NCBI GenBank assembly: GCA_963924555.1
Contig: OZ004584.1
Coordinates: 7,067,001-7,131,000 of the forward strand
DNA length: 64,000 bases
Reading direction: 5' to 3'
Origin: Crambe crambe
Taxonomy: Eukaryota > Porifera > Demospongiae > Poecilosclerida > Crambeidae
Under the pieces are notes generated by a model, which did no database searches, was not told the DNA's origin, and worked only from the letters and a program-made list of their open reading frames with translations. Positions 15,166 to 55,971 of this stretch are shown here, in pieces. The translations under genes were made by a program, and so were the position numbers. The first letter of the stretch is position 1, and the number at the start of each line of letters is the position of its first letter.

Positions 15166-15529
15166 TTAGTGCTTCCTCCTCTCTTCCCCTAATGGAACCA
15201 CATTTGAGTAAAATGTTGCATCAGGTCCAACTACTTCAACTCTCGGAGTTAAAGGAGGAATCTCAGCATAAACTGGCTATCAAAACATGAAAGAGAACAA
15301 TAAATTGTAGCTGTGTAGGTATTAGTCTATCATCACCTCTACTTTACCAACATCTTTAGTAATGGCATATGCACTGAACATGTATTTCTGGGTGATTTTA
15401 TCTATCTTGAGCAGTGGCCACCATTTCAGAAGATCTCTATAATGAATCATGACTACACTTTGGCTTAATATTATGGGGTGCCATTTTTCTCAAAATTCAA
15501 TCAAGAAGGAATTTACATGGGCACTCCAT

Positions 15530-16185
15530 GCTCACACAGGGGGTGAGAATCTACTAGCTAAATCTCATACATGGGAGGGTACCGGGTGGGAATTTACCAA
15601 CCATGCTCGCACCCCCCCCCCACCCCCCCCCCCCCCCCCCCCCCGTGTGTGAGTATGAATGAGATTTAATACATGTTCATTCCCTATGTGTGAGCATGGT
15701 TGAGATTTAGTAAATGCGTCCACCATCTCTGTGTATGGGCACGTGTGAGCATAGTTGAAATTTTCCACTCCCTGTGTGTGAGCATGGTTGAGATTTAGTA
15801 AATGTCCACCACCCCGTCTGTGAGTGGTTGAGATTTCCCAAATGAGCATGGTTGTCAATGAATTCGCTAGTAAATTCCCCCCTCTGTGTGAAATGATTGA
15901 ACGTGCACCTACGTGTGTGACCATGGTTAAATATCCACCACCTGTGTGTGAGTGGTTGAGATTTCCCACTCCCTGTGTAGCTATAAGCATGGTTAAATTA
16001 GTAAATTCCCACCCTTAGTGTGTGAAAATTAATGGTTGAGATTTACTAAACATGCACCTGTGTGTGAGTGAACATGGTTAAGATTTAGTAAATGTCCACC
16101 CTGTGTGTGAACATGGTTGAGAATGTACACCTGTGTGTGAGCATGGTTGAGACTTAGTAAATGTCCACCACCTCCTTCTCGACTG
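15530..16185. repeat. Degenerate minisatellite in a receptor A intron, with poly-C tract
   Basis: Variants of a unit of about 36-40 bp (TGTGTGAGCATGGTTGAGAT followed by TTAGTAAATGTCCACC) repeat about 15 times. A C-run interrupted once lies at about 15610-15645. It sits between the tail exons of gene A, inflating that intron. The copies at genes B and G lack it, so the expansion is specific to this locus. Confidence 0.8.
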
Positions 16186-16259
16186 AATTTCGAGACAAAC
16201 GGCACCCCATATTAGCTATGATGTTATTTTTGTTGGGAAAGTATATAGCATTTGCATAC

Positions 16260-16357
16260 ATCCTTTTACCATGCCAATGGCAGCCATTTCGGTACACAAT
16301 CTCCATAGAGCAAATTGTGCACCAAAATGGCTGCCATTGGGATGCATAGTAAAAGAA
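16260..16357. repeat. Foldback hairpin in receptor intron (copy at A)
   Basis: CCAATGGCAGCCATTTCGGT and ACCAAAATGGCTGCCATTGG form a hairpin of about 97 bp. Equivalent hairpins lie in the homologous intron at 19356-19445 and 36733-36836, so the insertion pre-dates the gene duplications. Confidence 0.75.
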
Positions 16358-18659
16358 TACATTGTAAACATTCAAATTAATGTATGATAGCCATTTGGAG
16401 CTAAATGGAAAGAAAGTAAAAATTGCTTTGAGTTCATCAATAATAGATAGCTAGCTCCTTGTAGCTAATGGATACCTCTTCTCTTTGAGCATCCGTAAGC
16501 TTGATAACTGTATATGCACTGTTTTCATGAGTTCGTATCTCAAAGTCTATTATTTCATCAGATGATTTCTGGCCATGATTCCTGCCTGTGGGAGTGTTAT
16601 AACATATAGCACAAGTGAATCGTCATGAATTTGAAAATGCTATAGCTGTCATATTGATCAACTGTCTAAGCTGCAGTGCTATACAGACATGTATTATTGT
16701 CATAAAATAGCTACCATTTTTCATGTGATGTAACCAATAGCAACAGCAAAATGTTGATAGCAGTAGAATGAATGCTAATATGGTCACCACTGCATGGAAA
16801 TATGATATTCATGGTAACAATAACAGTGACACGATTCTACCATAACATTTACCAATACCCACAGCAATTATCACATTCAAATACTCAGAGGAGGAGGAGT
16901 CTATAGAATAGTATATGACATACATAAGTCCATGATAAGCTAATTTCGATGACTAGTTATCAGAGGTACAGTTGCTTACTGATTATAGTCGAAATAATCT
17001 TTTGCGTTGTCAGGTTGCTTTCTCTTGGGAAGTACATCACAAGAATAACATTAGATAAACTTCCATCATCAGTTTCCACATAAACAGTATAGTTGTTTAC
17101 AGATGCATTGAAACATCTGCTGCAGTTATTCTCACCACTGTTCAGAATGAGGTACTGCAACTGATTCAAGTCAGTGGTAACTTGTACTGGGCAGCTGCAG
17201 TGTGTGTTGCTATTATCGTAGTCAAAGTGAATAGTAAATTCTTGAAAGCATACAGATGTTACCTGAAATAGAAGGAATACCATTTAAAATTATTATTAAA
17301 GATATCAATTATAATCACATACGTACCAAAGATATATTCAGCTCCAGTTCAGAATTAAATAATTGTATTTCTCCCTCAAAAATGAATATTCCTGAATTAA
17401 TTTAGCAATCATAATACCAGCTAGCTAAAGTAGTACCCATTAGTTTCATTACCATCATAAAATTCTACATTCCTTGGATCACTAGGAGCCCCTCGACCTA
17501 CTACATTCACTGCTGTGACTATGAACTGATAGTGAAGCATCAGTCCAGAGTTGTTGGTAGGTATTGTGTAGTGAGGAGTCACAATGGAGCATTGTCCAAG
17601 GTGATGAAGTGGAGTCCTCTCTCCTTCAGATACATTGTACACCTCCACACAGAATGTCATGTCTGGGTCAGTGTTAGTGATGTCGAGGGAGAAGGGAGGC
17701 TGCCATGTCAGGATGATGGAAGAACAGTTAGTGGAGACTCTCAGATCACTAACTCTCTCTAAGTATCCTGAATAAAGCAGCTAATTCACAATAAAAATAT
17801 AGCTACGTATGCTTTCCTTGTATGTGAAGAATAAAGGGATTTCCATATAAACGAGTTGAGTTTGGCATTACAGCACCAAAAGAAACACACTGGACTAATG
17901 AATTGTTTCGTCCAGCACTGCAGTATAGATGAAGAACACTTCCTGCAGATCTATTTATCACATCTCCATCCACTCCATCTTTAATAGTGGCATTGTTGAG
18001 ATGCCAATCAGTAAAAGCTTGCATAGTGGTACATCTGAACTCAGCTGTTTCATTTAGACCACATACCACTTCTGAGGTAACTTGTCCTGAGATGAATACA
18101 AACTGCAGTAGAGAAATAGAGGCAATGATAACTACTCTACTTCTTGACATAGCTAGCAGCTAGTATATTAGCTATCTAGCTAAGTTATAGTTTGGACAAC
18201 ATTATGTGCACTGTTTACATTGTGAAATTAGTCCATGCACCACACTATGAATTATATAGTTATGTAATTATAGCAGAGAAGATTTTGGGAAAAGCTATTT
18301 GATAATCATACACTGATGATGGCTCTGAGTAGCAGCTAATTGTCTGATTTAATAATTACATGTATGAGTGTGAGAGTTATTGATATTGAAATTTAATGAC
18401 ATGATTAGAACTTTAATGTGACTGATTAACTTTATGATCACAATGTGTTATGATGAGGATAAAAAAACAAGCAATGATTATAGCAACTACGATGTGTATT
18501 GGGCTACAGGAGGTTATGAAGCTGAATTGGGAGTGACCACCAGTGTTCTTAGGTACTGGATATTGTGTGATGTGTGTGTGGGTGTGGGGGGGGGGGGGTG
18601 GAAAGGAAGAGAGTGTCAATAAAGTAATATCAATAAGTCAATCTTCAGTGAAATGTAAA

Positions 18660-18835
18660 ACCATTAGCTATAGAGGAACTTCTAATAAATGGACGGACTT
18701 GGGACCCAGCCTTTTGTTGATCCTTTGTAGAGAGGTTGTCCTCTTTAGAGGTTAGTTCGTATAACAAGATTGTTTTTGTTGAGAGGTATGTCCTTTTTTG
18801 GAGGTTCCGCTGTTCCCAGGCCTATTTTTTTGTGG
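18660..18835. repeat. Decayed pogo/Tc1-like MITE in the A-B spacer
   Basis: AGAGGAACTTCTAATAAATG near 18673 is mirrored by TTTTGGAGGTTCCGCTGTTC near 18793. The arms resemble the better preserved element at 48430-48573. The same spacer is present at 36010-36165. A G-run lies at about 18586-18598. Confidence 0.45.
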
Positions 18836-19015: not shown

Positions 19016-21487
19016 TCAATGCTTCCTCCTCTCTTCTCCCAGTGGAACCACATTGGAGTAAAATGTTGCATCAGATGCAACTATTTCAACTCTCGGAGTT
19101 AAAGGAGGAATCTCAGCATAAACTGGCTAATGAAATATAGAGAACTTAATTCAATTATCGTAGCTATGTAGTATTAGTCTATCATCACCTCTACTTTGCC
19201 AACATCTTTAGTAATGGCATATGCACTGTTTTCCTGAGCGTGTATTTCTGGGTGATTCTGTCTATCTTGAGCAGTGGCTACCACTTCAGAAGATCTCTAT
19301 AATGAAAGATCAATCATCAGAAAGTATGACTACACTTGTATAATTATACATCCATTCACCATGCCAATGGCAGCCATTTTAGTACACAATCTTCATAGAG
19401 CATAATACAAATTGTGCACCAAAATGGCCGCCATTGGGATGCAATACATTGTAAACACTCAGATTAACTGTAACTAGCTCCATTTGGAGCTAAAAATTGC
19501 TTTGAGTTCATCAGTAATTATAGCTAGCTAGCTCCTTGCATAGATACCTCTTCTCTTTGAACATCCTTAAGCTTGATAAATGTGTATGCACTGTTTTCAT
19601 GAGTTTGTATCTCAAGGTTTATTATTTTACCAGATGATTTTTGCATAAGGATAATGAATTTATCATGAAGTATGACAACACTTTAAAGACGGCTATTATT
19701 ACTTTTTTCTGCAATAGACCTTAAGGAAAAGGAAGAGAATTAACTCAGTGATTGTTGCTCTGAGGCTCCAATTTCATAGAATAATAATGCTCTTAATTAA
19801 TCATAGCCATACCTCTTCTCTTTGAGCATCCTTAAGCTTGATAACTGTGTACAAACTGTTTTCATGAGTTTGTATCTCTGGGCATTTTACTTCATCAGAT
19901 GACTCCTTGCCATGGTTCCTGCCTACAATCATAATTATTATCATGATAGCTATTATAAGAGAAACTATCGATTTATGGCAATCACTAACTGTCTAAGGAA
20001 GTATTATAATAGTTACCACTTTTCACATGATGTAACCAATAGCAACAGCAAAATGTTGATAGCAGTAGAATGATGCTCATCACTGCATGGAAAGGTAACA
20101 AATTAATAGCAGTGAGCAACAAGATTATGTAATAATATTTACCAACACCCACAGATACTGCAATTACCACATTCAAATGCTCAGAAGAAGTAGAGTCTAC
20201 ACATTTAGTAGTACGTAAGTAAGTTACAATAACTATCATGACATCATAGCACAACAGCTGCCTACCAACTGTTGAAAAGCTTTTTTGTGGTATCTTATTA
20301 GTTGGGTCGTTTTCACTTGGGAAGTACATCACAAGAATAACATTAGATAAACTTCCACCATCAGTTTCCACATAAACAGTATAGTTGTTCACAGATGCAT
20401 TGAAACATCTGCTACAGTTATTCTCACTATTCAGAATAAGGTACTGTAAGCCAATAGCAACTTGTAATTGTACTGAGCAGTTGCAATGAGTGCTATTGTC
20501 ATGGTTTATAATGTGAACAGTTAATACTTGGGAGCATACAGAAGTCACCTGAAAGAGAATGAATAGCTAGCATTTTAGTCTTTTAGATATTAATTTTTTT
20601 TAAAAGCATACCAAAGATATATTCAGCTCCAATTCAGAATTAAATCGTTGTCGTATTTGACCCACACTAAGGAATATCCCTGAATAATATTAATCATCAC
20701 AATAACAGTTAGTCACCTACATAATTATGTAGTACCCATTAGTTTCATTACCATCATAAAATTCTACATTCCTTGGATCACTAGGAGCCCCTTGACCTAC
20801 TACATTCACTGCTGTGACTATGAACTGATAGTGGAGCACCAGTCCTGAGTTGTTGGTAGGTATTGTGTAGTGAGGAGTCACAATGGAGCATCGTCCAAGG
20901 TGGTGAAGTGGAGTCCTCTCTCCCTCTGATACGTTGTACACCTCCACACAGAATGTCATGTCTGGGTCATTGTTAGGAATGTCCAGGGAGAAGGGAGGCT
21001 GCCAAGTCAGAGTGATGGAAGAACAGTTGATGGATACACTCACTTCCCTCACTTGATCTAATAGCCCTGTTAGTAGCCAAGACAACAATAACAAATAAAC
21101 AAGAACTATACAACCACAACAACGAACAATAGCTATATAATACAGCTGCTTTCCTTGTATCTGAACATAGAAAGCATCACCAGGAACATTAGGTACACTT
21201 GGATCAGTAACATGAACTTCTTCACACTGAACTGTGGAGTTATCTAATTCTTCAGTACAGTTCAGAGAGAGAATTGAGGTGTCTTGTGTTGCAACAGTTC
21301 CTTCATAAATCTCATTATTGATTTTCCATGTTATGATGGATCCAGTGAGTGGCATGAAGTCCAAGGTACATTCAAATTCAGCTCGTTGATGTAGGCCACA
21401 AATTATCACTGATACACCCTGCACTGTTTCATAACTAAAAAGGACCAGAAGATAGATCACTATATATATAGCTCTAGTATATCTCAT
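19016..21487 (-). CDS. Receptor B: intact Ig-FN3-TM receptor with ITIM-like tail (482 aa)
   Basis: Nine exons join into one open frame of 1449 nt: 21154-21487, 20752-21066, 20612-20679, 20266-20548, 20143-20196, 20017-20082, 19813-19922, 19189-19296 and 19016-19126. The order is: signal peptide (MRYTRAIYIVIYLLVLFS), Ig-like domain (CGLHQRAEFEC, ending YVQIQG), FN3 domain, Cys-containing module (CNCSVQ, NCSRCFNAS), stalk, transmembrane helix (SIILLLSTFCCCYWL), ITIM-like exon (NSLYTVIKL), second tyrosine exon (ENSAYAITKD) and last exon (PVYAEIPP, TFYSNVVP, ending ERRKH). An extra ITIM-like exon copy at about 19555-19640 lacks a usable acceptor. All introns are GT-AG except intron 1, whose donor is GA (CAAG/GAAAGC). 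An upstream Met at 21503-21505 is a possible alternative start. Type I membrane protein; ligand unknown. By motif, phosphorylated tyrosines would recruit SH2 proteins. There is no death domain. Confidence 0.85.
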
Positions 21488-22019: not shown

Positions 22020-24530
22020 TCAATGCTCTTCCCCCAATGGAACCACATTTGAGTAAAATGTTGCATCAGGTCCAACTATTTCAACTCTCGGAGTTAAAGG
22101 AGGAATCTCAGCATAAACTGGCTATGTGGAAACATGAACATTCAAGGAAATTCATTTAGCTAATAGTCACCATCACCTCTACTTTATCATCTTTAGTGAC
22201 AGCATATGCACTGTTTTCTTGAATATGTATTTCTGGGTCAGAAATACATTATTACATGTATTTCTCGAGATTTGTCCATCTCGGGTAGTGGTTGTCACTT
22301 CAGAAGATGTCTGCATGAGGATAATGAATTCATCATGAAGTATGACATTAAGATATGGTAGCTATAACTTTATTTCCTGAAATAGACCTTTTGGATCAAA
22401 AATAAAGTAAGAAATTAGTGATTGTCGCTTTGAGGCTCCAATTTCAATGTTCTTCATCAATAGTTATAAACATGTACATGTACCTCTTCTCTTTGAGTAT
22501 CCTTAAGCTTGATAACTGTATACGCACTGTTTTCAAGAGTTTGTATTTCAGGGTTTATTACTTCATCAGATGATTTCTGGCCATGGTTCCTGCCTATATA
22601 TATGTGATATATAGAATCATGAGAATGTTATACGTAGATACATATGAGAGAAACTATAAATTTATGGCAATCACTAACCGTTACCACTTTTCACATGATG
22701 TAACCAATAGCAACAGCAAAATATTGATAACAGTAGAATGAATACAAGCATGCTCATCACTGCATGGAAAGGTAGCAAATTAATAACAGTGAGCGACAAG
22801 ATTTCACATAGTAATAATATTTACCAACACCCACAGATACTGCAATTACCACATTCAAATGCTCGAAAGAAGAAGAGTCTACACATGATTGGTAAGTATA
22901 AGTTGCTTTAACTGTCATAACATCATAGCACAACAGCTGCTTACCAACTGTTGAAAAGCTTTTTTGTGTTATCTTATTAGTTGGGTTGTTTTCACTTGGG
23001 AAGTACATCACAAGAATAACATTAGATAAAATTCCACCATCAGTTTCCACATAAATAGTATAGTTGTTCACAGATGCATTGAAACATCTACTGCAGTTAT
23101 CCTCATCACTATTCAGAATGAGGTACTGCAACTGATTCAAGTCAGTGGTTACTTGTGCTGGGCAGCTGCAGTGTGTGTTATCATCATTGTCGTCAAAGTG
23201 AATAGTAAATTCTTGAAAGCATAAAGATGTTACCTGAAATATAATGAATACCATTTAAAATTACCATTAATATTATCACGATCACATACCAAAGATATAT
23301 TCAGCTCCAATTCAGAATTAAACAGTTGTTGTATTTCTCCCTCAAAGATGAATATTCCTGAATTAATTCAGCAATCATAATACGTACCGGCTAGCAGCTA
23401 TTGTAGGTACTCATTAGTTTCATTACCATCATAAAATGTTATATTTCTTGGATCACTAGGAGCTCCTCGACCTACTACATTCACTGCTGTGACTATGAAC
23501 TGATAGTGAAGCATCAGTCCAGAGTTGTTGGCAGGTATTGTGTAGTGAGGAGTCACAATGGAGCATCGTCCAAGGTGGTGAAGTGGAGTCCTCTCTCCCT
23601 CAGATACATTGTACACCTCCAGACAGAATGTCATGTCTGGGTCAGTGTTAGGGAGGTCCAGGGAGAAGGGAGGCTGCCAAGTCAGAGTGATGGAAGAACA
23701 GTTGATGGAAATATTCACTTCTCTCACTTTATTAAGTAGCCCTGCAGTATAATTTGGATCAGCTAACACATGCATCTCTGAGAGCTATATAGCTACGTAG
23801 TTAGCTTTCCTTGAATACGGACTGTAATTAGGTCACCATAAATGATTAAATTTGCTGTATCAAGTACCATACACTGAACTGTAACATTTTCATACTCTTC
23901 TGTACAGTTTATCTGAAATTCTTTGTTAAATGATATATTTGCTCTCCAGTTATTCTTTGTGAGGTATTCATAATATTGGTGACAGTCCATAGAATTGAAG
24001 GTTGAATTAGAGATGACAAGTTCAAGTTGCAATCAAATTCAGCTATTCGATATAAACCACACACCACTTCTACATAAGCATAGCATATTTCATTCAGAGC
24101 TACTGTATCATCGCCAATACCTTTAGCTTAATAAGTACTAGCATAAAAGCAAAGAAGTATCTTCCTGCCATAACTATCGAAGCTCAAAGATAGATGTAGT
24201 TTAGAAAATAAAATGTGAATGATGTAACCAAAAATTAGCTAGCTATACACCTTGTATTTGGATGTGGTATACATCTCCAAGAACATCTGGGTCACTTCGA
24301 TTGAAGATATTTTGTTTCTTGCACTGAATTGTAGAGCCTTCAAATGTCTGAGTACAGTTCAGATTAAGCATTTGATTTCCAATAGTTGGATCAACTCCTT
24401 CAATTTCAGATGCTGAGACATTGTTGATTGTCCATTCTATTGCATGTAGACCCAGCGGGATGAAGTCCAAGGTACAGTTTAATACAACTCGTTGATGCAG
24501 ACCACAAATCACCAATGATGCTATCACCAT
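22020..24530 (-). pseudogene. Receptor C: degraded paralogue with two alternative Ig first exons
   Basis: Two Ig exons precede one FN3 exon. The upstream one (24251-24530, MVIASLVICGLHQ) has a very short signal sequence and, alone in the family, a standard GT donor (CAAG/GTGTAT). The nearer one (about 23820-24160) has its own signal-like start (MAGRYFFAFMLVLIKLKVL) but carries a stop and a frameshift. Then come FN3 (about 23428-23743), the Cys-containing module (about 23292-23355 and 22945-23234; CSCPAQ, NCSRCF), stalk, transmembrane exon (about 22680-22760) and an ITIM-like exon (22484-22593, NSAYTVIKL). The next exon (about 22186-22308) is shifted out of frame by an internal insertion near 22230-22260. 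The last exon keeps the YAEI segment and stops at 22020-22022. Splicing from the upstream Ig exon could still give a truncated receptor. No death domain. Confidence 0.6.
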
Positions 24531-24860
24531 AATAAGACCAGTAATTTTAGCTACATAGTAGCTAATTTCAATAGGTAGCTACTTGAACTATAGCATACCC
24601 TTAAAATGATTGCCAATATGGTGCCAGTGCAGTCATCCATTGATAATATTATCAGTAGCTAATGTATATACATCATGAAACTGTTTATACAGGTATATCA
24701 TAGCTAGTTATGTATCATGGTGAACTATAGTGTGCTATATTTGGAGTTGCCACAACTGTTTGTATAAATACACAACTTGTCATCAAAACAAAATTTATTT
24801 TTATGCTAAACTATTAATAATGTTCTAATAATTGACACAACTGATAAGTGTCTTGGCTAG

Positions 24861-27800
24861 CTACACCGATTCTGATACTTGGGAATATTTTTTTGATAAA
24901 GTGCATGCCAACTCATGCTCCTTTATATGACATAAAGCAGCAGTGATTTCTTTGAAGGGAGCTCTTCTCTTGAAGAAGTACTCCAAGGTCTCCTGCAAAC
25001 ATGCCTCATTGCTTTCATTGTTAGTGTAAATCTCATCCTCAAGATCCTCATCAATTCCTATCTTCAGTGCGAATTCACTCCACTTTCCAGCAATGGAATA
25101 TAGATCATGAAACAAATCTTCTGCAGTCATGGGTGGCTTTACTAAAGGTGTGAAGAAAGTCAACAGATATAATTTTCAGCCACTCCATACTGAATCCAGT
25201 AACCTCGTAGCTAAATTTGGGTGCTAAGACAGTTAAATCATTGAACATGTGACTGATATTCTTTGTTGTTCACTGTAATGAAAACATGGGATTCTACTGC
25301 TTTGCAATCTTGGTAGCTATATATAAGGAGTGCTTGGGAAAAGGTACGTACAAGTTGTAAAAATCCTGCTAAAGTTTATAAATAGCTAGCTACTTAATAA
25401 TCATGAAACCTAAAACTTTGAAACTGAAATTATTGATTTTAGTTCCATTTGAAGCAAAAATAATAGCTAATTGGATACCAATTACATCTCTAAAACTTGT
25501 TTTTGCTCCCAATTGTATACAGTAGCTAAGGTCCTATAACACACCTGCTGGTTTTGGTTGTGCTTTCATCTCCTCTTTTTCCTTTGGTATTGATATTCCT
25601 GTGAATGGGACTATGTCTGAGTAAATGACGTCGTTCACTATTATGACACCAGCACTTGAATTAGGATCACTGGTATCTAACTGAGCATACTTGACCTGCA
25701 AAATTTAAAAGGATAGAGAGGTAGCTGATTTCAGATTGTGGGTACTAAATTTAATTATCTATTGAATTTAATTATTTATTAACTAAATAATTGTATGGCT
25801 AGCTATATCCAGTTTATTATTGTCGTTTTTGTTGTTGTTGTTATTGTTTGTAAATTTTATTATTATTGTGAAATTTTTGACTTGCAGGTACTAAAGTTGA
25901 TGCCTCTCAAAATTCCGTACCTCTCTTTCATCTGGCATTGGTTTCTTATTTGGTAATGGTGCACTAGAAAATCTGATGTTCGCTACTTCATTATCAGCAG
26001 TTGAAGTAGATTCAGGATCATCAACTGGAGTGGATAAATCCTGCTAAAAAGATAATTATGTAATAGCTACTCCCATAATTTTTATGATTATTACATGTAT
26101 CATACCTCATTACTGTGGACTTTGATGATCTGTTCTTCAACAGAAGAATCAGGACTACAATATGTAGAATTTCTTTTCAAAGTGAGCATTGACTCTTCTA
26201 GAGGCTGGTAATGTGAAAATTATGTGCAATCAAAAATTGAAGAAGTAGGGCTGCATACATGTGCGTATAAGATAAATCTTGTACCTTTCCATCGCTATCC
26301 AGTGGAGGGTGCACTGGTTTTAGCAATGAATATGTAGCATCAATTCCTGTTGGAAAATCTTGTGAGTGGTGCTGAATTTAGATCGATGAATTGAGTATGA
26401 TGATATTAAGATAATTATTATCAAAATACTTAGTTACTTCGATGGTTGAATATGCTATGTCTGGGGAAGAAGTAGGTCCCACTAGAGAGTAATATGTTGG
26501 CTCACTCAGTGTAGGATTACTGCACAAATTCTACAAAAGGAATAAAAAATCAATCATCAAACAAAAAATAACTTTGTAAATACCGCTTTTTTCATTTCTT
26601 TCCTGTGATGTGAGTAGTAGTAAAGTATGAATGCCAACATCACTATCACAATGTTCATCACAACAGCTATAAAAATGTGGAAAAATAACATCTATGCTAG
26701 TTAGCTAATAGCTGTAAATCATACCTATTCCAACAGGTACTGCAATTGCTACCACACCAAGAGAGTTGGTATACTCAGTACTGCTTGTTCCTACCACTAA
26801 AAGTAAAAAGAATGTGTCATTAATATCATTATTATTACCTGCAGGAATAAACCTGCATGAAGTTAACATGTAAAAAATACAGCGCAGTAATATTTATGTT
26901 CAGTTAACTCAATGCTGTGCTACTGGCTAATTGCCCAGATAAGTTTTTGACTTCGAGAAGTTGATAAGATCAATTTTCAGTGTGAAACGTACATAATGGG
27001 ATCACATGATCATAACATCTGACAGCTTGGTATAACAGTCTGATGTGTATAGCAAACTAGACATCATGCAGCCATTGCAATGCAAATTGTTTATTATCAC
27101 TATCTAATAGTCTTACACTTTCTCTAAAAGCTCTATAGTTAAGTCCCTACTCACTTTCACTTGTGTATGTGTTCATTGTCATTATAGTTGGGGGTGGGAG
27201 TGTAGTTGGGGGCGGGAATGTAGTTGGGGTTGGGAGATACACCACTGTAAAATTGCTTGAAATGTTTTCGTATTTCGTTTCAACATGAAGAACATAGTTT
27301 ACAAATATGTATGAAATGTTGGGACAATTGCCTGAATCCATGGTAGGATCCTCATCATTGAGAATGAGATATTCAATCCTGTTCAATGCATCAGTGAGAT
27401 GTGCAGGGGAGCTGCAATGTGTGTCATCTTCATACTCTATGTGAACTGTCAGCTCTTTGAAGCAGCTTGTTGATGACTGGATTATCTCAGCTGAAATCTG
27501 TGACAGTCAATGTAGCTAGCTAGAAATCTTAGATTGGCTAGATTTTAGCTCCCCATAAGATGAGTGGTCCAGCCATTAGCTATCACATTTTTAAGGTTAG
27601 CTATCTGAGTTTATTGAAACTCAAATGGTTGTTTTTACACAACACATGATAATTTCAGTTTGTGAATGGTAACCAATTTATACTAGTTACATAACATACA
27701 GCCATCATCACTCCTGAATCAGATAAGTGTACATCTGGATCATAAAGTCCAATGAAATGATCTACATCATTGTGATTACTATGAGATGAGAATTTATTGG

Positions 27801-39300: not shown

Positions 39301-39417
39301 TGTTTGATTCAGGCCGCAGACAGCCTCATCACTCGAGAATGAAGTAATTCGTCCTACGAGCTGAATCACCGCTGTAGCTAAAATGATGCTAAACTTCTTG
39401 CTGCTACTTATTGACAT
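36369..39417 (-). CDS. Receptor G: intact chimera of an E/H-type ectodomain and an A/B-type tail (499 aa)
   Basis: Nine exons join into a 1500-nt frame: 39048-39417, 38684-38995, 38550-38617, 37724-38024, 37323-37367, 37183-37257, 36959-37068, 36547-36654 and 36369-36479. Order: signal peptide (KKFSIILATAVIQLVG), Ig-like domain (CGLNQTIEFRC), FN3, Cys-containing module (CCCSLNDT, NCGCLIPSTNYTIYIEY), stalk (DSSFEYLN), transmembrane helix (ILAFILLLSTFCCCYWL), ITIM-like exon (ENSAYTVIKL), second tyrosine exon (ENSAYAITKD) and YAEI exon ending RRKH. Exons 1-4 are of the E/H type, which elsewhere is joined to a death-domain tail; exons 5-9 are of the A/B type. All junction phases agree, so the chimera is splice-compatible. 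An upstream Met at 39441 is possible. GA donor at 39046-39047. No death domain. Confidence 0.85.
36733..36836. repeat. Foldback hairpin in receptor intron (copy at G)
   Basis: Same hairpin as at 16260-16357 and 19356-19445 (CCAATGGCAGCCATTTTGGT and its inverse), in the homologous tail intron. A G-run and T-run lie in another intron of this gene at about 37670-37705. Confidence 0.7.
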
Positions 39418-40978: not shown

Positions 40979-43597
40979 TCAGCTTATTGAGTACTTTGAT
41001 TTCAAATTATCAGCCACTTTCATTTCACTGATGTTCTCTAGAGCTTCAATGATACCCTCCAGTTTGTTTCCAGGACGTTCAAAGTAAAACTCCAATGTGA
41101 CTTCAAGGCATGTAACATTGCTTTCATTGTTGGTATAAATTTCATCTTCAAGGTCTTCATCGATTCCAATTTGTTTTGCAAACTCACTCCATTTGTCAGC
41201 GATGGGAATAAGATCTTCAATAACATCTGCAGCAGTTGAAGGCTTTGGTACAATTACTATAATATAAATAACAATAATGAGCATATGTACATATAGCTAA
41301 GTTTTCATAAACATCTGCAGGGTATTCTAAACACCCCCCTCTCCTCTTTGTAGCTCATAAACAAAGAGTATAGCTACCCCATTTTAATTAATAATCATGC
41401 AAGACTGCAAGGCTCAACTTGTAGCCTTATTTTCTTTTCTTCATTATGGTAGCAATGTATACTTGGCTAGCTACTAGCCATTACTTTTAGCTTGCTTTGT
41501 TGGAATCTGTGGTGGCACATCAAGTTTCAACTTTGAAGGAACTACATCTGAGTAGATCACTTTTTCTGGTGCTATGATCCCAACAACCGGAGATGAACGC
41601 AAGAGGTTTAGTTGAGCATATGTTGCACTCTATAGTATGAATCATTGAATCATGCATCACCATTAGTCAATATTGCTAGCTCTACCTCACTGCTCAAAGA
41701 ATCTTTGGTTGTATGACACACTTTTTCATTGCTAGGTGAAGCATGTGGTACAGGGTCATCGTGGGTATGCACATTCTGCAAATAAAGTAAAAACCGTAAC
41801 TAACAATTCAGTCCCAAAGAGCCACTATGTATGTAGCTATAGCTACATAAGCCAAATATTATTAATTGTAATGACAACAAATACATAGCTATATATTTGA
41901 TGAAAAACACTTTGCTTCAACCTCCAAGTTAGGAACTCTTTTGGTAGCATAATTTAGTGGATCAGTGGGTAACTGGGTGAGGGGAATATGTTGACATCTG
42001 CAGTCACTAGCACCTTCTGCTTCATGAACTGGAGTTTGTAGCTGTGGCAGGGTGGGGGGAGAAGAATGTTATTGATGGCTCACATGTGTTAGTTGAAATC
42101 ATCCACTCACGGCAATTGGATATACGTACTTTGCCTGTTGCCATTGATCAAAAATAAGTAATTTGCAAGTAGCTAGTTCACATGCACAAATGCACAGTTG
42201 TTTGTATTCACAATCACTAGCTAAATATCAGTAATGAAGGAGTATGAAAAGCTTTCTTTGTATGTTGAACTTTACATATAGGTACATGTAGCTATATACC
42301 TCATTCCCAGTATTTTCAGTGAGTACATCTGAGCTTGGAGCACTGAGTCCTCTTGGTAAGATATCATCATACACAAGCTCGTCTGAGGTCATACCACTTG
42401 ATGCCTCCTCTTCAGGTGGATTCTATATAAATTAGCTATACCTTTCACCATCTGGTTTTAGTCACAACAGACTCATACCATGAAATCTGAGTATATATTG
42501 TCCTGTAAAAAGAACAATACTTTCGTGACTATACATGACTGAGATTACTTTGTACGTACCTCATGAAATTGTACTTCAAATTCACCTACAGCATAAGGAC
42601 TTAGTGCATATAATATATGTATAATGATTATAGTTGGCTATGTAATTTTACCATTATGTTCTCTTCGTCTCTTTCTGTAGTGGCAGCAGAAACCACAGCA
42701 AGATAGGATGATGATTGTGAAGAGCATGCATACTGGTTGAGTGTAGCTATAGTAAAATGTAATTACAGCCATTCTGATCTTTCTTACCAACAGCTAATGC
42801 TGCAATAACTGCTGTAACTTTGAGGTTCAGATGTACTCCATTGTCTGTTCACAGACTCAGAATAATGAGTATACGTAGCTAGCTAGCTAGCCATAGGTGC
42901 CATGCATGTAAGTAATATCATGGACTGAGACATCACTAAAAAATGGGGGGTGGGGGGGGGGGTCATACCTGAAGTTGATGTAATGATTTCAGAAATAATT
43001 CTAGTTGGTTCAGGTTGAGTCATGCTAGTTAGTTCAGGTTGAGTCATATTTTCACATTTTTCAGTTGGGATAATGAAGAGGTGATTGGACACAACCTCAT
43101 TATCCATATATTCGATGTATATGGTATAATTTGTGGATGAAAAAAGACAACCACAGTTGTCACTGTGGAACTCAAATCCAGTGACATTCATGTCATTTAG
43201 TGAGCAGCAGCAGCAATTTGTTTCATTGTGATGTGCTTTGATATGTACAGTAACTCCTGAGGCCAGTGAGTAGGGAGAGATCTCCTGTGCATGCATTGAT
43301 CAGAAAATAATAGGGTTATAGCTATCTATTATTATTAGCTATAGCTCAGTTAATTGTAATTGCGTAAAGGGATGCAAAATTATAGCAACTAGCTATAAGT
43401 TGCTTTCAGTTGGCTATAGCTACAAAGCAGGACTATTTTTAAATAACATATGGCCTCTGTATAGCTACATACAATTCATTACGCTGCAAAAAAAAACAAA
43501 ACCAATTTCATCTGAGTTACAGTTTGCAACAACTGTGACTGCATGTTATTCTAAATTCTCTTCTATAACAATACCTTACAATAGGCACACAGTTCCC

Positions 43598-43628
<31 letters not shown>

Positions 43629-44703
43629 AGCAATAGCTACTATAACATCAATAACTATAACATCAATAGCTACTTCCCTAAATGGACAGCTGATTATTAT
43701 TGCATGGTTATGTTAATTTTGACATTATATGTACAATGTATTAGAGACTTTGTTTAAAACTTATTGGTAATAGATTTACTTTAATATGAGACTTGCAAAT
43801 CTTGACTGTTGCATTGAGAAGAAAACCTTAATACATGTAACACATACATATAGACATAGCTAATATAAAATACACCAGTGGTTCACATTGGCCTATTATT
43901 GCATGCAATGCGCTACCTTGCCCCTTAAAAATAACTTACAAGGAAGAAGTGTTGCATTTATGGGTGCACTAGGAGCTCCTAGACCAACTACATTCATTGC
44001 TGTAACAATGAACTGATACTGATTGAGGTCACTGATAATCATGGAGTACATGTCAGGATTGATGTTCATAGTGTACTGATGTGCATCAGTGCAATGATCA
44101 GCAGAATCATTAAGTTGAATAGTTCTTCCCCCTGTGATTTCATATACATCTACACAGAATGTCATGTCTGGGTCAGTGTTAGTGATATCCAGGGAGAAAG
44201 GAGGTTGCCAAGTCAGGGTGATGGACCAGGGGGTACAGTTGATGGAGACCTCTAGGTCTTTAACACTCTCTAGTAATCCTGCATGGGACGATCCTATAAT
44301 AACATGATTTACTAGCTAAATTTGTATACTTTCCTTGTATGCGAAGAGTATGCAGATTACCGAAAGCAGGAGGTTCAGTCAAGGAGAGAAGACTAACTCT
44401 AACACACTGAACTAGTGAGTTATTCAGTGAAGTACTGCAGTCTAGGAATAGCAAAGGAAGTCTTGATGATAAATTTGACCTGGCTCCTTCAACACTGATA
44501 GAGGAGACATTGTTGATTTTCCATTCAAAGCCATAAAGTCCTCTAGGGTTCCCTGGTGGTGTTGGTGCTAAGAGACATCTGAATTCAATTGTTTGATTCA
44601 GGCCACAGACAACCTCATCACTCGAGAATGAGGTGATTCGTCCTACGAGCTGAATCACTGCAGCTATAATGATATTAAACTTCTTGTTACTACTTCTTGA
44701 CAT
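40979..44703 (-). pseudogene. Receptor H: long-tail receptor with death domain; splice donor of exon 3 altered
   Basis: Exon 1 (44334-44703) has a signal peptide and Ig-like domain; exon 2 (43940-44278) is FN3. The Cys-containing module (about 43760-43820 and 42968-43284: CCCCSLND, NCGCLFSSTNYTIYIEYM) is followed by stalk and transmembrane exons (about 42660-42745, LFTIIILSCCGFCCHYRKRR). Tail exons have LVYDDI (about 42303-42425) and the pair ATYAQL and VIYSDV (about 41495-41630). The death domain (40979-41262) is full length (DLIPIADKWSEFAKQIGI, DEDLEDEIYTNNES, CLEVTLEFYF) and ends KSKYSIS. The one defect seen is the exon-3 donor near 43760: paralogues have TTA/GTAAGT, here CCA/ATAAGT, a G-to-A change at +1. 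If that blocks splicing, the gene is impaired; all other parts look intact, so it may still be active through a nearby site. Confidence 0.75.
43600..43628. repeat. Poly-C tract in receptor H intron
   Basis: An uninterrupted run of C of about 29 bases. Length is likely variable or assembly-sensitive. Confidence 0.9.
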
Positions 44704-45071: not shown

Positions 45072-48000
45072 CTATGTTTCACAGTACTTTCTATACAAGT
45101 AATTTGCCACCTCCAATTCTTCCATGCTTTTCAGAGCGTTGATAATATCAGCCAAGCTCTGAGAGTGAAGTAATTCAATGGTGACCTTTAGGCATGCTTT
45201 ATTTATATTGGTAGGCTCTCCAGTGAATTCAAGGACACTTTCCGTATCAATTCCCATTTTTCCAGCAAATTCCCTCCACTTGCAAGCAATAGGGGAAAGA
45301 TCATGGAAGAGATCAGCCACATTTAGAGTTGCAGCATTCTGAAGATTTTCTGATAACAATATCATAATGATTATTATTGTTATGGCTGTAGCTAGCTTGG
45401 AATTCAGTTGGCATACCATCCCACCCATAGACAGCTGTATGGGCCAGGTATAAATTTGAAATAGAGACAAAAGCTTATCATTGCTTCAGGATTTAGCTAA
45501 CTCTGATAAGCTGTGATGGCAGTCAGCTGATAGGCAAGTACTATAAAGCTGCAGATTATCTTTTTTTACCTTGTTTCCATTGGGACTCTTTAGGGATGAT
45601 ATTTAAGTAAATTGGCTCATTAGCTGATGGCTTCCTAATGTTTGGTGGAATCTCAGCGTAGGAAGGCTATTCAGTATAAAGAATATAGAATGCACAATAA
45701 GAAATGCAGTACCTTAGCTAATTGCTTCAAAGTTACATGCATGGCAATCTTTAAAAAAACCACCAATGATTAGCTATAGCTAGCTTCTTCAATCCTAAGA
45801 GTTATTTTCTTTCTACATATACAGCTTATGAATAATATTATCCACACCTCAATGTCATTTGTGACAACAGCATACGCAGTGTTTTCATAGGTGCATAAGC
45901 TTTTATCATGATGACTAGCAACAGTTGGTAGATGACTGCACTTTCCTCCTGTTGGCAATGATTCAAGCTATAATTATGAGTTATAATAATTATTATGGTT
46001 ATTACTGTATAGCTACATTATAATTGGGGTTCAGGACCAGAATACATGTCAGCAGAGACTATATAGATAGCAACCCCAGGGGAGCATTTTAGCCTATATG
46101 GTCTCCCTGCAGCATGGTCAACATGCATGACTGTAGTCAATCCCGTGACTAGTTTGATAAGTGACGTACCACTGGTCTTCTTCTTTTTGTAAATGCTGGC
46201 TCCAACGAGTGAGAGAATGAGTACCACAATACTCAAAACTGTATAAGGCATTATATACTTGTGAATAATCATATTGCTAGCTACAGCTAGTAGTTATAAA
46301 ATTAATATTAAAGCAAGCTGTATGCTGCCATGATACTTGAGGAGATAGCTACTGAACAACTCTTCAAGTGGCTCTATTAACAGGGAATGAGGAGGGGATC
46401 AAGGGAAGGGGGGGGGGGGGAACGTTCCTCCAAGGAGCACAAGCATGCTGATGTATCTTTACCAGCTATGGCAGATGTCACACTTGAGCCTATAATAATA
46501 TTAATATCAGCTCCTTCATCTGAATAATTATAGGATAATAATAAACATACAGGTAATTCATGCTATGAAATTGTTTACTTGTATTGAATCTGTTCAGTGT
46601 TGATGCATTTACATCAAGATCAATGTTAGTAGTTCCAAGTTGAGTTAAGTTTTCACAAGTTTCAGTTGTGCTGATGAAAAGACGATTAGATACAAGTTGG
46701 CATTCCATAATTTTAATGAATATGGTATAATTTGCTGAAGGAATAATGCAGCCACATTTTCCACTATTCAGAGAAATGTTTGTGTTCTTGATTCTGCAGA
46801 TGCATTCTGTGTCACTTTCATAGGCTATGATATGTATATAAACTCTTAATTCTGAAAGTAGCAAGTTAGGAGAAGTTACCTAAACATCATAATTATAATT
46901 ATGTAGCTACTGTCATCAATCGAGTTATTAAAATTAAGTCATATGATGAATTACGTAGTGAAATAAACTATGCTTTCATGCAGCAGACTTTATATAACAT
47001 TTAATGGAGCAACAATCAACTTAACTGATTATGTTTTTACTAGCTATAAATAGGAAGGTCAAAGTCAAAATTAATACAGAATCATAGGAAGGATGTTTCT
47101 TATTAGCTACTCACAAAATACACAGCTACACAGCACAATCAAACATCAAATCCACTTAATTAATTAAGCAACTACAGTAACTTTCCATGGTACATAATTT
47201 TTGCCATGATATAACTCTGATAGCTAAAGATTAACAAAAATTAGGCACTTACTAGTGATGCATTCACTTCCACCTGAGAGTTACATATCTCGGCTCTTGC
47301 ATTGAGGAGACTTGGATTGAAACCTTCATTGTTATAAATTTAGGATTATAGCTATAAAGTTGGTTGGCCCCATGCTAATCTTACAAGGAAGAAGTGTTGC
47401 ATTTATGGGTGCACTAGGAGCTCCTAGACCAACTACATTCATTGCTGTAACAATGAACTGATACTGATTGAGGTCACTGATAATCATGGAGTATATGTAC
47501 TCAGGATTGATATTCATAGTGTACTGATGTGCATCAGTACAATGATCAGCAGAATCATTAAGTTGAATAGTTCTTCCCCCTGTTATTTCATATACATCCA
47601 CACAGAATGTCATGTCTGGGTCAGTGTTAGTGATATCCAGGGAGAAAGGAGGTTGCCAAGTCAGGGTGATGGACCAGGGGGTACAGTTGATGGAGACCTC
47701 TAGGTCTTTAACACTCTCTAGTAATCCTGCATGGGACGATCCTATAATAACATGATTTACTAGCTAAACTTGTATACTTTCCTTGTATGCGAAGAGTATG
47801 CAGATTACCGAAAGCAGGAGGTTCAGTCAAGGAGAGAAGACTAACTCTAACACACTGAACTAGTGAGTTATTCAGTGAAGTACTGCAGTCTAGGAATAGC
47901 AAAGGAAGTCTTGATGATAAATTTGACCTGGCTCCTTCAACACTGATAGAGGAGACATTGTTGATTTTCCATTCAAAGCCATAAAGTCCTCTAGGGTTCC

Positions 48001-48205
48001 CTGGTGGTGTTGGTGCTAAGAGACATCTGAATTCAATTGTTTGATTCAGGCCACAGACAACCTCATCACTCGAGAATGAGGTAGTTCGTCCTACGAGCTG
48101 AATCACCGCCGTAGCTAAAATGACACTTCTTAGCATCATTTCCCTCGGAATATCTCTCAGCATACTGACACGACCTTTATCTATTTTAGCTACATTACTG
48201 CGCAT
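45072..48205 (-). CDS. Receptor I: Ig-FN3-TM receptor with short tail and death domain
   Basis: Exon 1 ends at 47782 and has a distinct N-terminus (MLRDIPREMMLRSVILATAV) before an Ig-like domain nearly identical to that of H. FN3 (about 47384-47726) is also nearly identical. The Cys-containing module (about 47254-47320 and 46535-46880: NSGKCGCIIPSANYTIFIK) differs from H. Stalk (SSVTSAIA) and transmembrane exon (about 46170-46285, YTVLSIVVLILSLVGASIYKKKK) follow. Tail exons have ENTAYAVVTND (about 45850-45955) and SYAEIPPN plus PIYLNIIP (about 45570-45665). The death domain (45072-45350: DLFHDLSPIACKWREFAGKM, SLADIINALKSMEELEVANY) is divergent from those of D, E and H and resembles those of F and J. 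I could not confirm one junction: the transmembrane exon ends in phase 1, but the next exon reads best in phase 0. Start codon uncertain among several Mets. Confidence 0.7.
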
Positions 48206-52240: not shown

Positions 52241-52242
52241 CT

Positions 52243-52375: not shown

Positions 52376-52377
52376 GC

Positions 52378-53235
52378 ACATCTAACACACTGGACCATTG
52401 AATCATTGCATCCAGCACTGCAGTATAGATGAAGAACAACTCTATCTATCATATTTCCATCCACTCCATCTCTTAAAGTGGCATTTTAGTGAATTAGCTA
52501 CAGTAGGCAACTTGCTTTTACCGAAATTAGTTAGTAGAAGAGCAATTCGTTTAGAGTTTAGCTAGTTCATACCCCGCGCGTGCGCGTGCAACATTAACTG
52601 CTTACGCACATGCGCAGTTGACAGTCCGTTTGAAGTGAAACTCAAGACTTCAAGACATGTGACATTGCTTTCAATTTCATTTTCAAGATTTGTTTGCAAA
52701 CTCACTCCAATGGGAACAATCTTACATCATGTAAAAATAATCAGAACTGGTGGTAGCTACAGGGTGTATTCAAACATCTCCCTTCATAGCTATAATTAGC
52801 TATAGATTGCTCTGTGGTGGCATAGTTTAAACTTTGAGGGAACTACGTCATATAGCTCAGTATGATATCACTGTGAGAGGAACGTGAGAGGGTTTCTCTA
52901 TAGATTAATCAATCATCATGAGTAATAAGAGCTATACCTCACTACTCAAAATATATTGCTGGGCGAAGCTTGTGGTACGGGGTCATCTTGAGTATATGCA
53001 TGCAAGCTATGCAAGTAGCTAGATCCATTCCCCAAATAGCTAGCTATAAAAGCAACCACGAGTGTATACATACCTAATAATAACGATAACACGTTTCAAC
53101 AAGACATTTCATGAAGCTTATTCAATCTCCAAGTCAAAACTCTTTCAGTATGTACAAAAACATGTTTCACCAATAGTTGATGAAAAAATAATAGCTAGCT
53201 ACTTTGTTTCAATCTCCAAGTTATCCATCACTGGG
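52378..53235 (-). pseudogene. Shredded receptor relic (Ig, death-domain and ITIM-exon fragments)
   Basis: 52380-52490 matches the A-type Ig exon. 52490-52530 matches the 5' flank of gene D. 52620-52730 matches the E/H-type death domain. 52795-52890 matches the VVYSDV exon, and 52930-52995 and 53090-53225 match neighbouring tail sequence. Each piece is shortened, and the join between Ig and death-domain remnants skips most of a gene. Confidence 0.65.
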
Positions 53236-53907
53236 TTAGGTGGGTCATCAGTGGGTATCTTGCATGGGTTATGGGACAAGGTGTAGAGAAGAAATTGACA
53301 ATATCTCATGAATCAGATCTTAGAGCTACACAGCAACAACAATAACAAGCAGAAAGATAAAGGCCATCTTTATAATTTTATACCTACAGTATACAGATTA
53401 TTATGATACTATACGTAGCTAGCACTACAAAGAAAATATTGTAATAGCTAATTATTAGTATAACAAAGTTATGCATGTTCCATGTATTTCAGGTGACTTG
53501 ATCAATGATCATTCAGGTTCCCAGAACATAGATAACAGTCATTGGAAAACCATGCATGCATGACTAACTCAGTTTGTTTTGTATTTCATGATTTAGTTTT
53601 CTATACCAATAGCTAATCATCCCAAATAGTAGGTATTGCTAGATAATAATAGCTATACCGCAAACATTGATGTTGACTGAGTGCTATTTGTGAATTTATA
53701 GCTCTTTCTCCAATCCCTAAAGCAAAAATCATGGCAGCTAGCTATAAAGTTATCTAAGGATATTTCAAAGTGCAGTGAAAATATCTACACATTCAATTTC
53801 ATATTTCTGCACAAACATTTTGCTACGCTAATTTGATTACAAACCAAAATTAATTATATACAGTATATATATATAACAGTCAGCTTTGCTATGTAAACAG
53901 GTCATTG

Positions 53908-55971
53908 TTAGTCACATGAAAAATATTTTCTGGATAAATAATTAGCCACTTCATATTCTTCCATGTTTTTCAAGGCATCAGTAATATCAGCCAGATTATG
54001 AGAGTTAATGGTGAAAAATAATTCAACTGTGGCTTCCAAGCATGCTTCATTAGTGTCATCTTTGGAGAATTTAGGAATATTATCTGCAACAATTCCTAAT
54101 TTAGTGGCAAACTCCCTCCACTTGCGAGCAATTGGTGAAAGATCATTCAACAGGTTACCAACAGAAATTCTTGCATTTTTTTGATCCATTTCTGTAAAAA
54201 TCGATAGCTATATAGTTACACTATAATTATTATGTAGCTTCAAGTGGCATAGCCATAATAACCAACCTGGTTTCAGTTGAATAATTGATGTGTTCTCCTC
54301 CAATGGAATCATGAATACATCATTGGGTGTGGTTATTTCAGTTGGTGTTGAAAGAGTGATCTCCCCAATGTCTTCATAGGGGTGATCAGGCTAGAAGTAC
54401 AGAGAATAATAATATTATTTAGCTAGCAGGCTGCAGCTCTCTAGCTTGTAGCTACCTCATCATCTTTGATCACAGCATATGCACTATTCTGATGTATATT
54501 TATCTCAGTTGATGGTGCAGGTAGATCATGCTGACTGGCTGGAAATTCAGTAGACCTCTGTATAGTATTTATTAACGACAACAAAAACTGCATAGATTCA
54601 ACCCATTAGCTACCTTTCCTTTCCTGTAATGGAACCAAAGGCAGAAACATAATGATGCACTTGATAGCAGCAGAATAACCAATGTGATGCTCAATACTGG
54701 AACAATTATACTTAAAGTGTAGCTCCAACTATGTATCATACCAATCATTGTTGTAGTTATAGCATCTGTATTAGAAGGAATAGTCTACAATAGCTAGTTA
54801 AAATATAGCTATAGCTAGTGACTAACTTGTTTGTGAGATCACCATATGAGTAGATCTGTAACTGTTATCAGTTGTCACAATAAGTCTATTAGATACAGTT
54901 CCATTATCAGTTTCCATATAAATACTGTTTACAGATATAGATTCATCAAGACATCTGCTACAATTATGAATACTCTCTCCATTCAAAATGATGAAATGTT
55001 GCTGATTCAACTCCGGAGTTACTTGTATTGGGCAGCTGCAGTTTGTGCTATCATAGTAATCAAAGTGGACAGTTAGCTCTTGGAAGCACACAGATATCAC
55101 CTGTATAATAATTAAAATCAATCGTTTACAGTAGACAAGCACCAATGTTAATACCAGTGATACATTCAGTTCAGAATTAATCCAACTTGCTCCATACAGT
55201 CGTATAATGCCTACATATATATAAAATAATTCAGTTTAATTATGATTAGCTAACTATTTCTACTACCATCATAAAATTCTACATTCCTTGGATCACTAGG
55301 AGTCCCTCGACCTACTACATTCACTGCTGTGACCATGAACTGATAGTGGAGCATCAGTCCAGAATTGTCTGTAGGTATTGTGTAGTGAGGAGTCATAATG
55401 GAGCATCGTCCAAGGTGCTGAAGTGGAGTCCTCTCTTCCTCAGATACATTGTACACCTCCACACAGAAGGTCATGTCTGGATCAGTGTTAGTGATATCCA
55501 GGGAGAAGGGAGGCTGCCAAGTCAGGGTGATGGAGGAACAGTTGGTGGAGGCATTCACTTCCTTCACTTCATCTAATAGCCCTGTTAGCAATAATACCAA
55601 AATAATAACAATAAAGTAAAATAGCTAAGCTGCTTTCCTTGTATCTGAACATAGAAAACATCACCAGGAACATTAGGTACACTTGGATCAGTAACATGAA
55701 CTTCTTCACACTGAATTGTGGAGTTTTCTAATTCTTCAGTACAGTTCAGAGAGAGAATTTGGGTGTCTCGTTTTGCAGCAGTTCCTTCATAAATCTCATT
55801 ATTGATTGTCCATGTTATGATGGATCCAGCGAGTGGCATGAAGTCCAAGGTACATTCAAATTCAGCTCGTTGATGTAGGCCACAGGTTATCACTGATACA
55901 CCTTGCACTTTTTCATCACTAAAAAGGACCAGAAGATAGATCACTATATATATTGCTCTAGTGTATCTCAT
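53908..55971 (-). CDS. Receptor J: intact Ig-FN3-TM receptor with ITIM-like motif and death domain (531 aa)
   Basis: Nine exons join into a 1596-nt frame: 55638-55971, 55267-55581, 55155-55210, 54827-55100, 54742-54765, 54614-54696, 54456-54557, 54267-54390 and 53908-54191. Order: signal peptide (MRYTRAIYIVIYLLVLFS), Ig-like domain (CGLHQRAEFEC), FN3, Cys-containing module (NCSCPIQ, NCSRCLDES), very short stalk, transmembrane helix (SITLVILLLSSASLCFCLWF), ITIM-like exon (NSAYAVIKD; S-x-Y-x-x-I), an exon with PYEDIGEI, and a C-terminal death domain (NLLNDLSPIARKWREFATKL, NLADITDALKNMEEYEVANY). The Ig and FN3 exons are closest to those of gene B, which has no death domain, while the death domain is closest to that of I. 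Longer N-terminal starts up to 56028 are possible. GA donor at 55636-55637; all other introns GT-AG. Confidence 0.88.

Follow-up and report, generated by a model that had tools for sequence, protein, structure and literature searches.

Several animal receptors join an immunoglobulin (Ig) ectodomain to tyrosine motifs or to a death domain (DD), and they are the background for a tandem array of putative receptor genes found in a 64,000-nucleotide window of the sponge Crambe crambe (G000:C6:7067001-7131000, where C6 is one of the 119 contigs of a 143-Mb genome; "the window" is this whole stretch). In Hydractinia, the Alr genes form a clustered multigene family of the Ig superfamily (IgSF) with single-pass members and many pseudogenes (PMC11067881), and Alr candidate genes bear immunoreceptor tyrosine-based inhibitory or activation motifs (ITIM/ITAM; PMC12065747). 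The fester co-receptors (FcoR) of Botryllus are likewise clustered and combine an Ig ectodomain, a transmembrane (TM) segment and a long tail with ITIM, hemITAM and Y-x-x-I/L/V core motifs (PMC12065747). In CD300A and CD300C the ectodomains stay alike, the tails are divergent, and gene conversion has been proposed (PMC12447643). The first-pass annotation of the window, made from sequence alone, held that ITIMs and DDs normally sit on separate receptors. This stands only in part, since CD95/Fas carries an ITAM/ITIM-like motif around Tyr291 of its DD (PMC4572867) and UNC5B joins an Ig ectodomain to a cytoplasmic DD (PMC8358048). In sponges, IgTIR places an Ig ectodomain on the innate signalling domain TIR, with one gene in one species and two in another (PMC6208332).

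By description, the C6 array resembles Alr in being clustered, IgSF-like and ITIM-bearing; no DD is mentioned for Alr in the available text. FcoR pair Ig with sushi whereas the C6 genes pair Ig with fibronectin type III (FN3), and the available text on FcoR mentions no DD either. Exchange of heads and tails on C6 resembles CD300A/CD300C, for which the available text again mentions no DD; those partners are inhibitory and activating by function, whereas the C6 classes are defined by sequence. The CD95 motif lies inside the DD, while C6 receptors carry their motifs in a separate tail; the CD95 ectodomain is of the TNFR type. UNC5B, like the C6 receptors with their Ig-like head, has a cytoplasmic DD. 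It also has TSP repeats and ZU5, neither of which was seen at E<=1 in four whole C6 proteins, and it is not known to form a tandem array. Sponge IgTIR uses TIR where the C6 receptors use a DD, and numbers one or two genes per species in the text available. Among the best-matching open-licence papers, in their available portions, no receptor family with Ig/FN3, ITIM and DD is described, nor is one shown in PMC9505182, PMC11999971, PMC12909245, PMC6321704 or PMC2575513. The mechanisms of invertebrate allorecognition have been called a mystery (PMC12065747). Cnidarian, tunicate and vertebrate allorecognition loci are unrelated receptors converging on ITIM/ITAM signalling; a clustered ITIM-bearing IgSF-like family that has DDs and places shared heads on different tails would add a further lineage with a concrete candidate locus, and would link surface recognition directly to the death machinery.

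Repeated exon sets occupy the minus strand of the window from about 15.3 to 56.0 kb, in the order signal peptide plus Ig-like, FN3, short hinge, Cys module, one or more TM exons, tyrosine-motif tail and, in some, DD. The first-pass annotation had described such paralogous sets, which were found where it placed them. The family as a whole is about ten times larger than seen in the window, and its exon sets include a hinge exon beyond those described. Two classes of DD can be told apart, class 1 (J/I-like, with a short tail) and class 2 (D/H-like, with a long tail). A strict ITIM is [SIVL]xYxx[IVL]. Four complete, stop-free spliced models could be assembled, two in the window (J, D) and two outside it (L039, L042), and in each the ITIM tail and DD lie in one frame behind Ig, FN3 and TM, as had been claimed. 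These genes, with a fifth, H, are as follows.

55971-53908, minus strand: gene J, 546 aa, eight exons, stop-free
55638..55971, minus strand: J exon 1, signal peptide and Ig-like domain, phase-1 end at a GA donor (splice model; Ig by its C-W-C pattern)
55267..55581, minus strand: J exon 2, FN3, phase 1-1 (fn3 E 3.9e-4, 21 bits against a cut-off of 25, whole protein)
54827..55210, minus strand: J exons 3-4, hinge (55210-55155) and Cys module (55100-54827), from the splice model
54614..54765, minus strand: J exon 5, single TM helix (Kyte-Doolittle maximum 2.53, residues 339-373)
54267..54557, minus strand: J exons 6-7, tail with SAYAVI (strict ITIM) and YEDI (splice model, motif count)
53908..54191, minus strand: J exon 8, class 1 DD (Pfam Death 27.5 bits against a cut-off of 22.6), its phase-1 acceptor fitting the exon 7 donor
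24861..28526, minus strand: gene D, 675 aa, 12 exons, stop-free model, Ig-FN3-hinge-Cys-TM-tail-DD (class 2), tail motifs TYYSLV, IAYSTI, VKYAQL and VIYSDI (motif count)
40979..44703, minus strand: gene H, class 2 tail (LVYDDI, VIYSDV) and DD (26.4 bits); hinge-exon donor degenerate
C6:7338200-7340800: gene L039, 572 aa, about 200 kb past the main array, with further units at 7.20 and 7.27 Mb
C6:7134300-7137300: gene L042, 693 aa, stop-free model

In L042 a single open exon spans hinge and Cys module, which lends support to the frame read through the hinge/Cys junction. Gene H is possibly non-functional because of its degenerate donor. L040 was rejected as an intact gene, as J exon boundaries give 22 stops in it, beginning with the TM exon; comparisons still draw on the DD and Ig exons of L040. 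The L041 model reaches the Cys module only. We put at roughly 60% the probability that these genes encode recognition receptors in which shared heads are linked to signalling through a phosphatase and a death adaptor.

The joining of ITIM tail and DD behind Ig/FN3 is well supported at the level of DNA. In J, D, L039 and L042 the splice phases agree: a phase-1 GT donor closes the last exon of the tail, and a phase-1 AG acceptor opens the DD exon. A same-strand Cys exon is the nearest upstream element within 5 kb for 46 of the 56 DD exons on C6, against a mean of 37.7 and a maximum of 44 when DD strands were shuffled 2000 times (the observed count used all elements, the shuffles FN3 and Cys elements only). 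Six more DDs lie behind an FN3 exon, probably in units like the damaged one at window 34650-35499; three have nothing within 5 kb, and one has an opposite-strand element. Six of the seven plus-strand DDs follow a plus-strand Cys exon. The DD exon set comprises 15 exons from the window and loci L039-L046, of which 14 were aligned and the one bearing a TAA excluded. Eight of the 14 have no Met before the domain and must therefore be spliced to something upstream, which rules out a stand-alone DD gene within the DD exon.

Constraint was estimated as the ratio of nonsynonymous to synonymous divergence (dN/dS) in pairs with 0.05<dS<1.5, a condition that 50 of the 91 pairs satisfied for the DD and 113 of the 136 for the Ig exon. 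The ratio is below 1 in all 50 DD pairs (median 0.34, range 0.16-0.67), exclusion of the TAA-bearing exon favouring a low value; among Ig exons the median is 0.64 and five of the 113 pairs are at or above 1. The faster evolution of the Ig head is what a recognition surface would show, and relaxed constraint would look alike.

These data bear on whether the DD is used at all. The genes might encode receptors that signal through ITIMs only, their transcripts as a rule stopping short of the DD, which would then be an alternative or rarely used 3' exon. In both H and D an in-frame stop lies at most four codons past the donor that precedes the DD exon, so a retained intron would give a DD-less receptor, and 51 of the 92 FN3-Cys units counted on C6 have no DD next. 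Purifying selection on the open DD exons and the lack of a Met in eight of 14 both argue the other way, and we consider such an explanation unlikely.

Profile searches gave the DD call of the first-pass annotation moderate support: all 14 open DD exons match Pfam Death (PF00531) at E<=0.1. Five window exons were scanned individually, the TAA-bearing exon (30401-30712) not being among them, and two exceed the curated cut-off of 22.6 bits, those at 40979 (26.4) and 53908 (27.5). The three weaker ones share homology with these two, as phmmer shows within a small set of open reading frames (E 1e-9 to 4e-26). The DD exon of D alone gives E 0.025, and Death is found in whole proteins J (1.1e-4) and L039 (0.0011). 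FN3 matched its profile as well, at E 4.7e-6 and 3e-5 in the two exons scanned and at 3.9e-4 to 0.027, under cut-off, in whole proteins. At E<=1, the only domains that Pfam gave were fn3 and Death in J, L039 and L042, whereas in D they were fn3 and a PRIMA1 match under threshold; ZU5 and TSP1 were not found in these four whole proteins. The head exon is probably Ig-like, a call that rests on the conserved Cys-Trp-Cys pattern because profile matches are weak: Cys19, Trp33, Cys56 and Cys67 are invariant across 17 aligned copies. J (residues 339-373), D (356-391) and L042 (339-373) have one strong TM segment each, and the N-terminus is hydrophobic over threshold in D and L042 and under it in J. 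In a profile search of PDB the DD weakly matched first a calcium-channel subunit (E 0.087), next the death domain of TNFRSF16 (E 0.29) and third HipB; the Ig weakly matched an antibody light chain (E 0.055). Protein J searched against 5.8 billion proteins yielded 6669 candidates and none at E<=0.001; animal coverage of that set is uncertain, so this is not evidence of absence.

ITIM-like motifs had been noted in the tails, and they are enriched there. The five hand-cut tails of J, L039, L042, H and D hold nine strict ITIMs (SAYAVI, SAYAVV, VIYSQV, IVYSDI, LVYDDI, VIYSDV, IAYSTI, VKYAQL and VIYSDI) against 1.51 expected, a count reached in none of 5000 shuffles. The looser Yxx[IVL] occurs 18 times against 5.00 expected, again with 0 of 5000 shuffles as high, whereas the two hand-cut ectodomains of J and D have seven against 5.72 (1721 of 5000). 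J and L039, of class 1, carry one strict ITIM each; L042, H and D, of class 2, carry two or three.

Candidate partners for both halves of the tail are present in the genome, and presence is not interaction. The SHP-2-like locus C18:6538300-6541600 encodes SH2, SH2 and protein tyrosine phosphatase (PTP) parts. Its SH2 part best matches SHP-2 (PTPN11) chains (E 1.8e-53); its PTP part, which contains the HCSAGIGRTGTF motif, matches receptor-type phosphatases first (E 4.7e-42) and then SHP-2 (E 3.6e-34). Death effector domains (DEDs) give 29 matches. At C1:53.9-54.5 kb a DED precedes a partial DD match by 0.3 kb, which is the domain order of FADD; these exons are candidates for a FADD-like adaptor. 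DED/FADD-like proteins were the adaptors covered by the search, MyD88 and others falling outside it.

The second element of the proposal, heads shared between different tails, draws on the remaining genes of the window, which are listed here.

45072..48163, minus strand: gene I, H-like head, different tail, class 1 DD (45072-45347); no complete spliced model, owing to the TM-to-tail stretch
30401..34236, minus strand: gene taken as E of the first-pass annotation, H-like, with an in-frame TAA in the DD exon (30401-30712); exon matches only
34650..35499, minus strand: relic with a broken Ig, partial FN3 and a DD exon ending a few residues early (34650-34961); exon matches
36535..39417, minus strand: gene G, Ig, FN3, Cys and tyrosine-motif tail, no DD match downstream; exon matches only
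22460..24578, minus strand: gene C, two Ig-like exons, FN3, Cys and tail, no DD match downstream; exon matches only
19527..21487, minus strand: gene B, Ig, FN3, Cys, TM and tail with SLYTVI, no DD match downstream; exon matches only
15325..18150, minus strand: gene A, Ig, FN3, Cys, TM and tail with SAYTVI, no DD match downstream; exon matches only
24861-25141, 30401-30712 (TAA), 34650-34961 (relic), 40979-41256, 45072-45347 and 53908-54191, minus strand: DD-like exons of the window

D, E, H, I and J had been said to end in a DD, truncated in E. The DD exons are there; in the gene taken as E (34236-30401) a nonsense codon interrupts the DD, the hinge-exon donor of H is lost, and the relic at 34650-34961 is a further DD.

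Head/tail exchange between genes is plain. Among 12 DD-bearing genes compared, four neighbouring pairs carry near-identical heads on different tails. J and L042, whose FN3 exons are 14 kb apart, share 97.8% DNA identity over 767 bp comprising the 5' end, Ig, intron 1 and FN3; past the end of the FN3 exon identity falls to 67.5% over 228 bp of Cys module, the tails do not match and the DDs are 39% alike. The adjacent genes H and I are 97.8% identical over 744 bp up to the end of the FN3 exon, beyond which only 146 bp match at 73% and the DDs are 38% alike. L040 and L041, adjacent on opposite strands, share 89.1% over 1163 bp with DDs at 42%, and a plus-strand gene at C6:6769-6772 kb matches a minus-strand gene at 6774-6777 kb at 96.4% over 1123 bp before the two diverge. 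Conversely, the DDs of J, L039, L040 and L044 are 80-91% alike on Ig heads only 28-39% alike, and across nine genes Ig identity shows no correlation with DD identity (r -0.19, Mantel p 0.84).

Each of the four head-sharing pairs consists of one class 1 and one class 2 DD. The chance of this is about 1/11 (12 DD genes, six per class by our own grouping) and we chose the pairs for their similarity, which leaves the cross-class rule no more than suggestive. Class 2 is the nearest neighbour of 20 of the 24 class 1 DDs (mean 14.0; 78 of 5000 shuffles as many), a figure inflated by duplicated blocks, and alternation of classes along the array is weak: 33 switches out of 55 compare with an average of 27.4 after shuffling, and 797 of 10000 shuffles reached that number. 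Sharing extends to other genes. Gene B, which lacks a DD, has a head that matches the J head at 89.0% over 764 bp; gene T (6857-6861 kb, J-type tail and DD) is 89.7% identical over 2040 bp to G, also without a DD, and its head is 80-88% like those of H, I and the gene at 34236-30401. A further gene, R, is about 79-85% like D over most of its length.

With these elements the proposed mechanism can be set out. The genes would form a large multigene family of type I membrane receptors, whose Ig-FN3 head and Cys module would bind an extracellular ligand, carried most likely by another cell or a microbe. Once phosphorylated, the ITIM-type tyrosines would recruit the SHP-2-like phosphatase (probably) or other SH2 proteins, and the C-terminal DD, where present, would on receptor clustering assemble an adaptor complex with a FADD-like or other DD adaptor. 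One receptor could in this way set the threshold for, or gate, a death or NF-kB-type response. Genes sharing a head would let one ligand be read through different tails, DD-less, class 1 or class 2, much as vertebrate paired receptors place one ectodomain on opposing tails. The proposal would entail expression of the genes, tail phosphorylation, adaptor binding and a ligand, and a role in self/non-self or microbe recognition makes a good hypothesis for the family. In a further-reaching version the array would be a histocompatibility-like complex of an early-branching animal, in which gene conversion keeps heads alike on short-tail class 1 and multi-ITIM class 2 DD tails and competing receptors gate death or NF-kB; this we hold to be doubtful.

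UNC5B, which also joins Ig to a cytoplasmic DD (PMC8358048), raises the possibility of adhesion or guidance receptors akin to UNC5-like dependence receptors, with no immune or recognition role. The roughly one hundred tandem copies, the swapping of heads and tails, the faster evolution of the Ig and the lack of ZU5 or TSP1 at Pfam E<=1 in the four whole proteins all sit poorly with such a function, which seems to us quite unlikely. To our knowledge, guidance receptors do not form large tandem arrays, swap heads and tails or show fast Ig evolution.

The window is the edge of a tandem array of about half a megabase and about a hundred receptor genes, mainly within C6 6.58-7.14 Mb. From search tables of the sponge's own genome we typed at least 107 FN3, at least 109 Cys-module and at least 56 DD exons on C6, lower bounds in that one query's 177 matches were entered only in part. 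The counts leave aside Ig-only entries, those on C10, C14 and C66, second fragments of one Cys exon, and weak FN3 entries (37-39% identity) near 5.01-5.15 and 7.74-7.85 Mb. All but eight of the 107 FN3 exons, 99 in number and mostly minus-strand, fall within the 6.58-7.14 Mb interval; the eight outliers map to 4.69-4.70, 5.66, 5.71, 7.20, 7.27 and 7.34 Mb. Two Cys-module queries had 96 and 24 genome matches. A J-type DD query had 60, of which 56 are on C6 and the others on C1, C14 (two) and C8, so that this kind of DD is almost restricted to C6. Between 6.58 and 7.14 Mb, blocks recur at offsets of about 100.9 kb and 15.7 kb with identical match scores, which points either to segmental duplication in the recent past or to an artefact of assembly.

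Tandem duplication, chimeras and decay, all three anticipated by the first-pass annotation, are real, and it might be asked whether decay is the whole story, with a few functional genes among pseudogenes or assembly duplicates. Nonsense codons, relics and the near-identical blocks are what mostly decaying duplicates would leave. As 47 of the 56 C6 DD matches are stop-free, four complete stop-free genes could be assembled and the open DDs are constrained, we regard this as distinctly improbable.

Several observations nevertheless weigh against recognition receptors with a phosphatase and death-adaptor tail. The predicted receptor structure is read from DNA. Of the C6 units counted, a DD follows in only 41 of 92, nine of the 56 DD matches are interrupted by a stop, and damage is seen in several genes of the window. 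Array counts are not independent because the near-identical blocks may include assembly duplications. Death is below cut-off in three of the five window exons scanned (15.1, 14.2 and 19.2 bits), is not listed at E<=1 by Pfam in the whole D protein, and reaches only 0.054 in L042. Ig profile support is slight, one of 17 copies touching I-set and one Ig_3 (best E 0.12 and 0.18). The five tails counted for ITIMs are related, and the J and D ectodomains also hold five strict ITIM matches against 1.96 expected (210 of 5000 shuffles). Head groups are larger than pairs, as B goes with J and G with T, which speaks against a strict pairing.

Intron 1, between Ig and FN3, has an unusual donor. The exon ends in AAG and the intron begins GAAA: GA was found in all 30 distinct FN3-linked exon ends recognised and GT in none, with an AG acceptor.

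Window 55638, 44334, 47782, 28196, 17817 and others, and L039-L046: GA donor at the 3' end of exon 1

The count comes from 47 distinct AT[ACT]CAAG matches upstream of FN3; the other 17 (TT 11, TG 4, TC 1, CA 1) lie, by our own reading, inside the intron or the Ig coding part. The remaining introns of the models are GT-AG, save the broken hinge donor of H. A GA-AG consensus has been described for Eurytemora and Oikopleura (PMC7072748), and the upstream AG and downstream A of intron 1 fit it. A GA-AG intron is apparently conserved through this large gene family. A variant U1 snRNA behind the GA donor was ruled out, the usual ACTTACCTG being present in all three U1 copies found. Upstream of gene C, a second Ig-like exon (24246-24578), not directly before FN3, ends in AAG followed by GTGTAT, the sole GT at that position among window Ig exons.

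A different Ig-like exon (48873-49250, minus strand, I-set E 0.2) lies between genes I and J. DDs of any kind are common in the genome, with at least 150 matches; clusters at C16:1.25-1.47 Mb, C18:5.25-5.59 Mb and C15:1.39-1.69 Mb are unmatched by the receptor-family DD queries, and some of those on C15 lie in very long open frames, up to 2557 codons. Elsewhere in the window, minus-strand open reading frames at 10140-11902 resemble, by eye, a tyrosinase/haemocyanin-type copper protein, and a minisatellite-like repeat at 61225-62591 is open in several frames on both strands.

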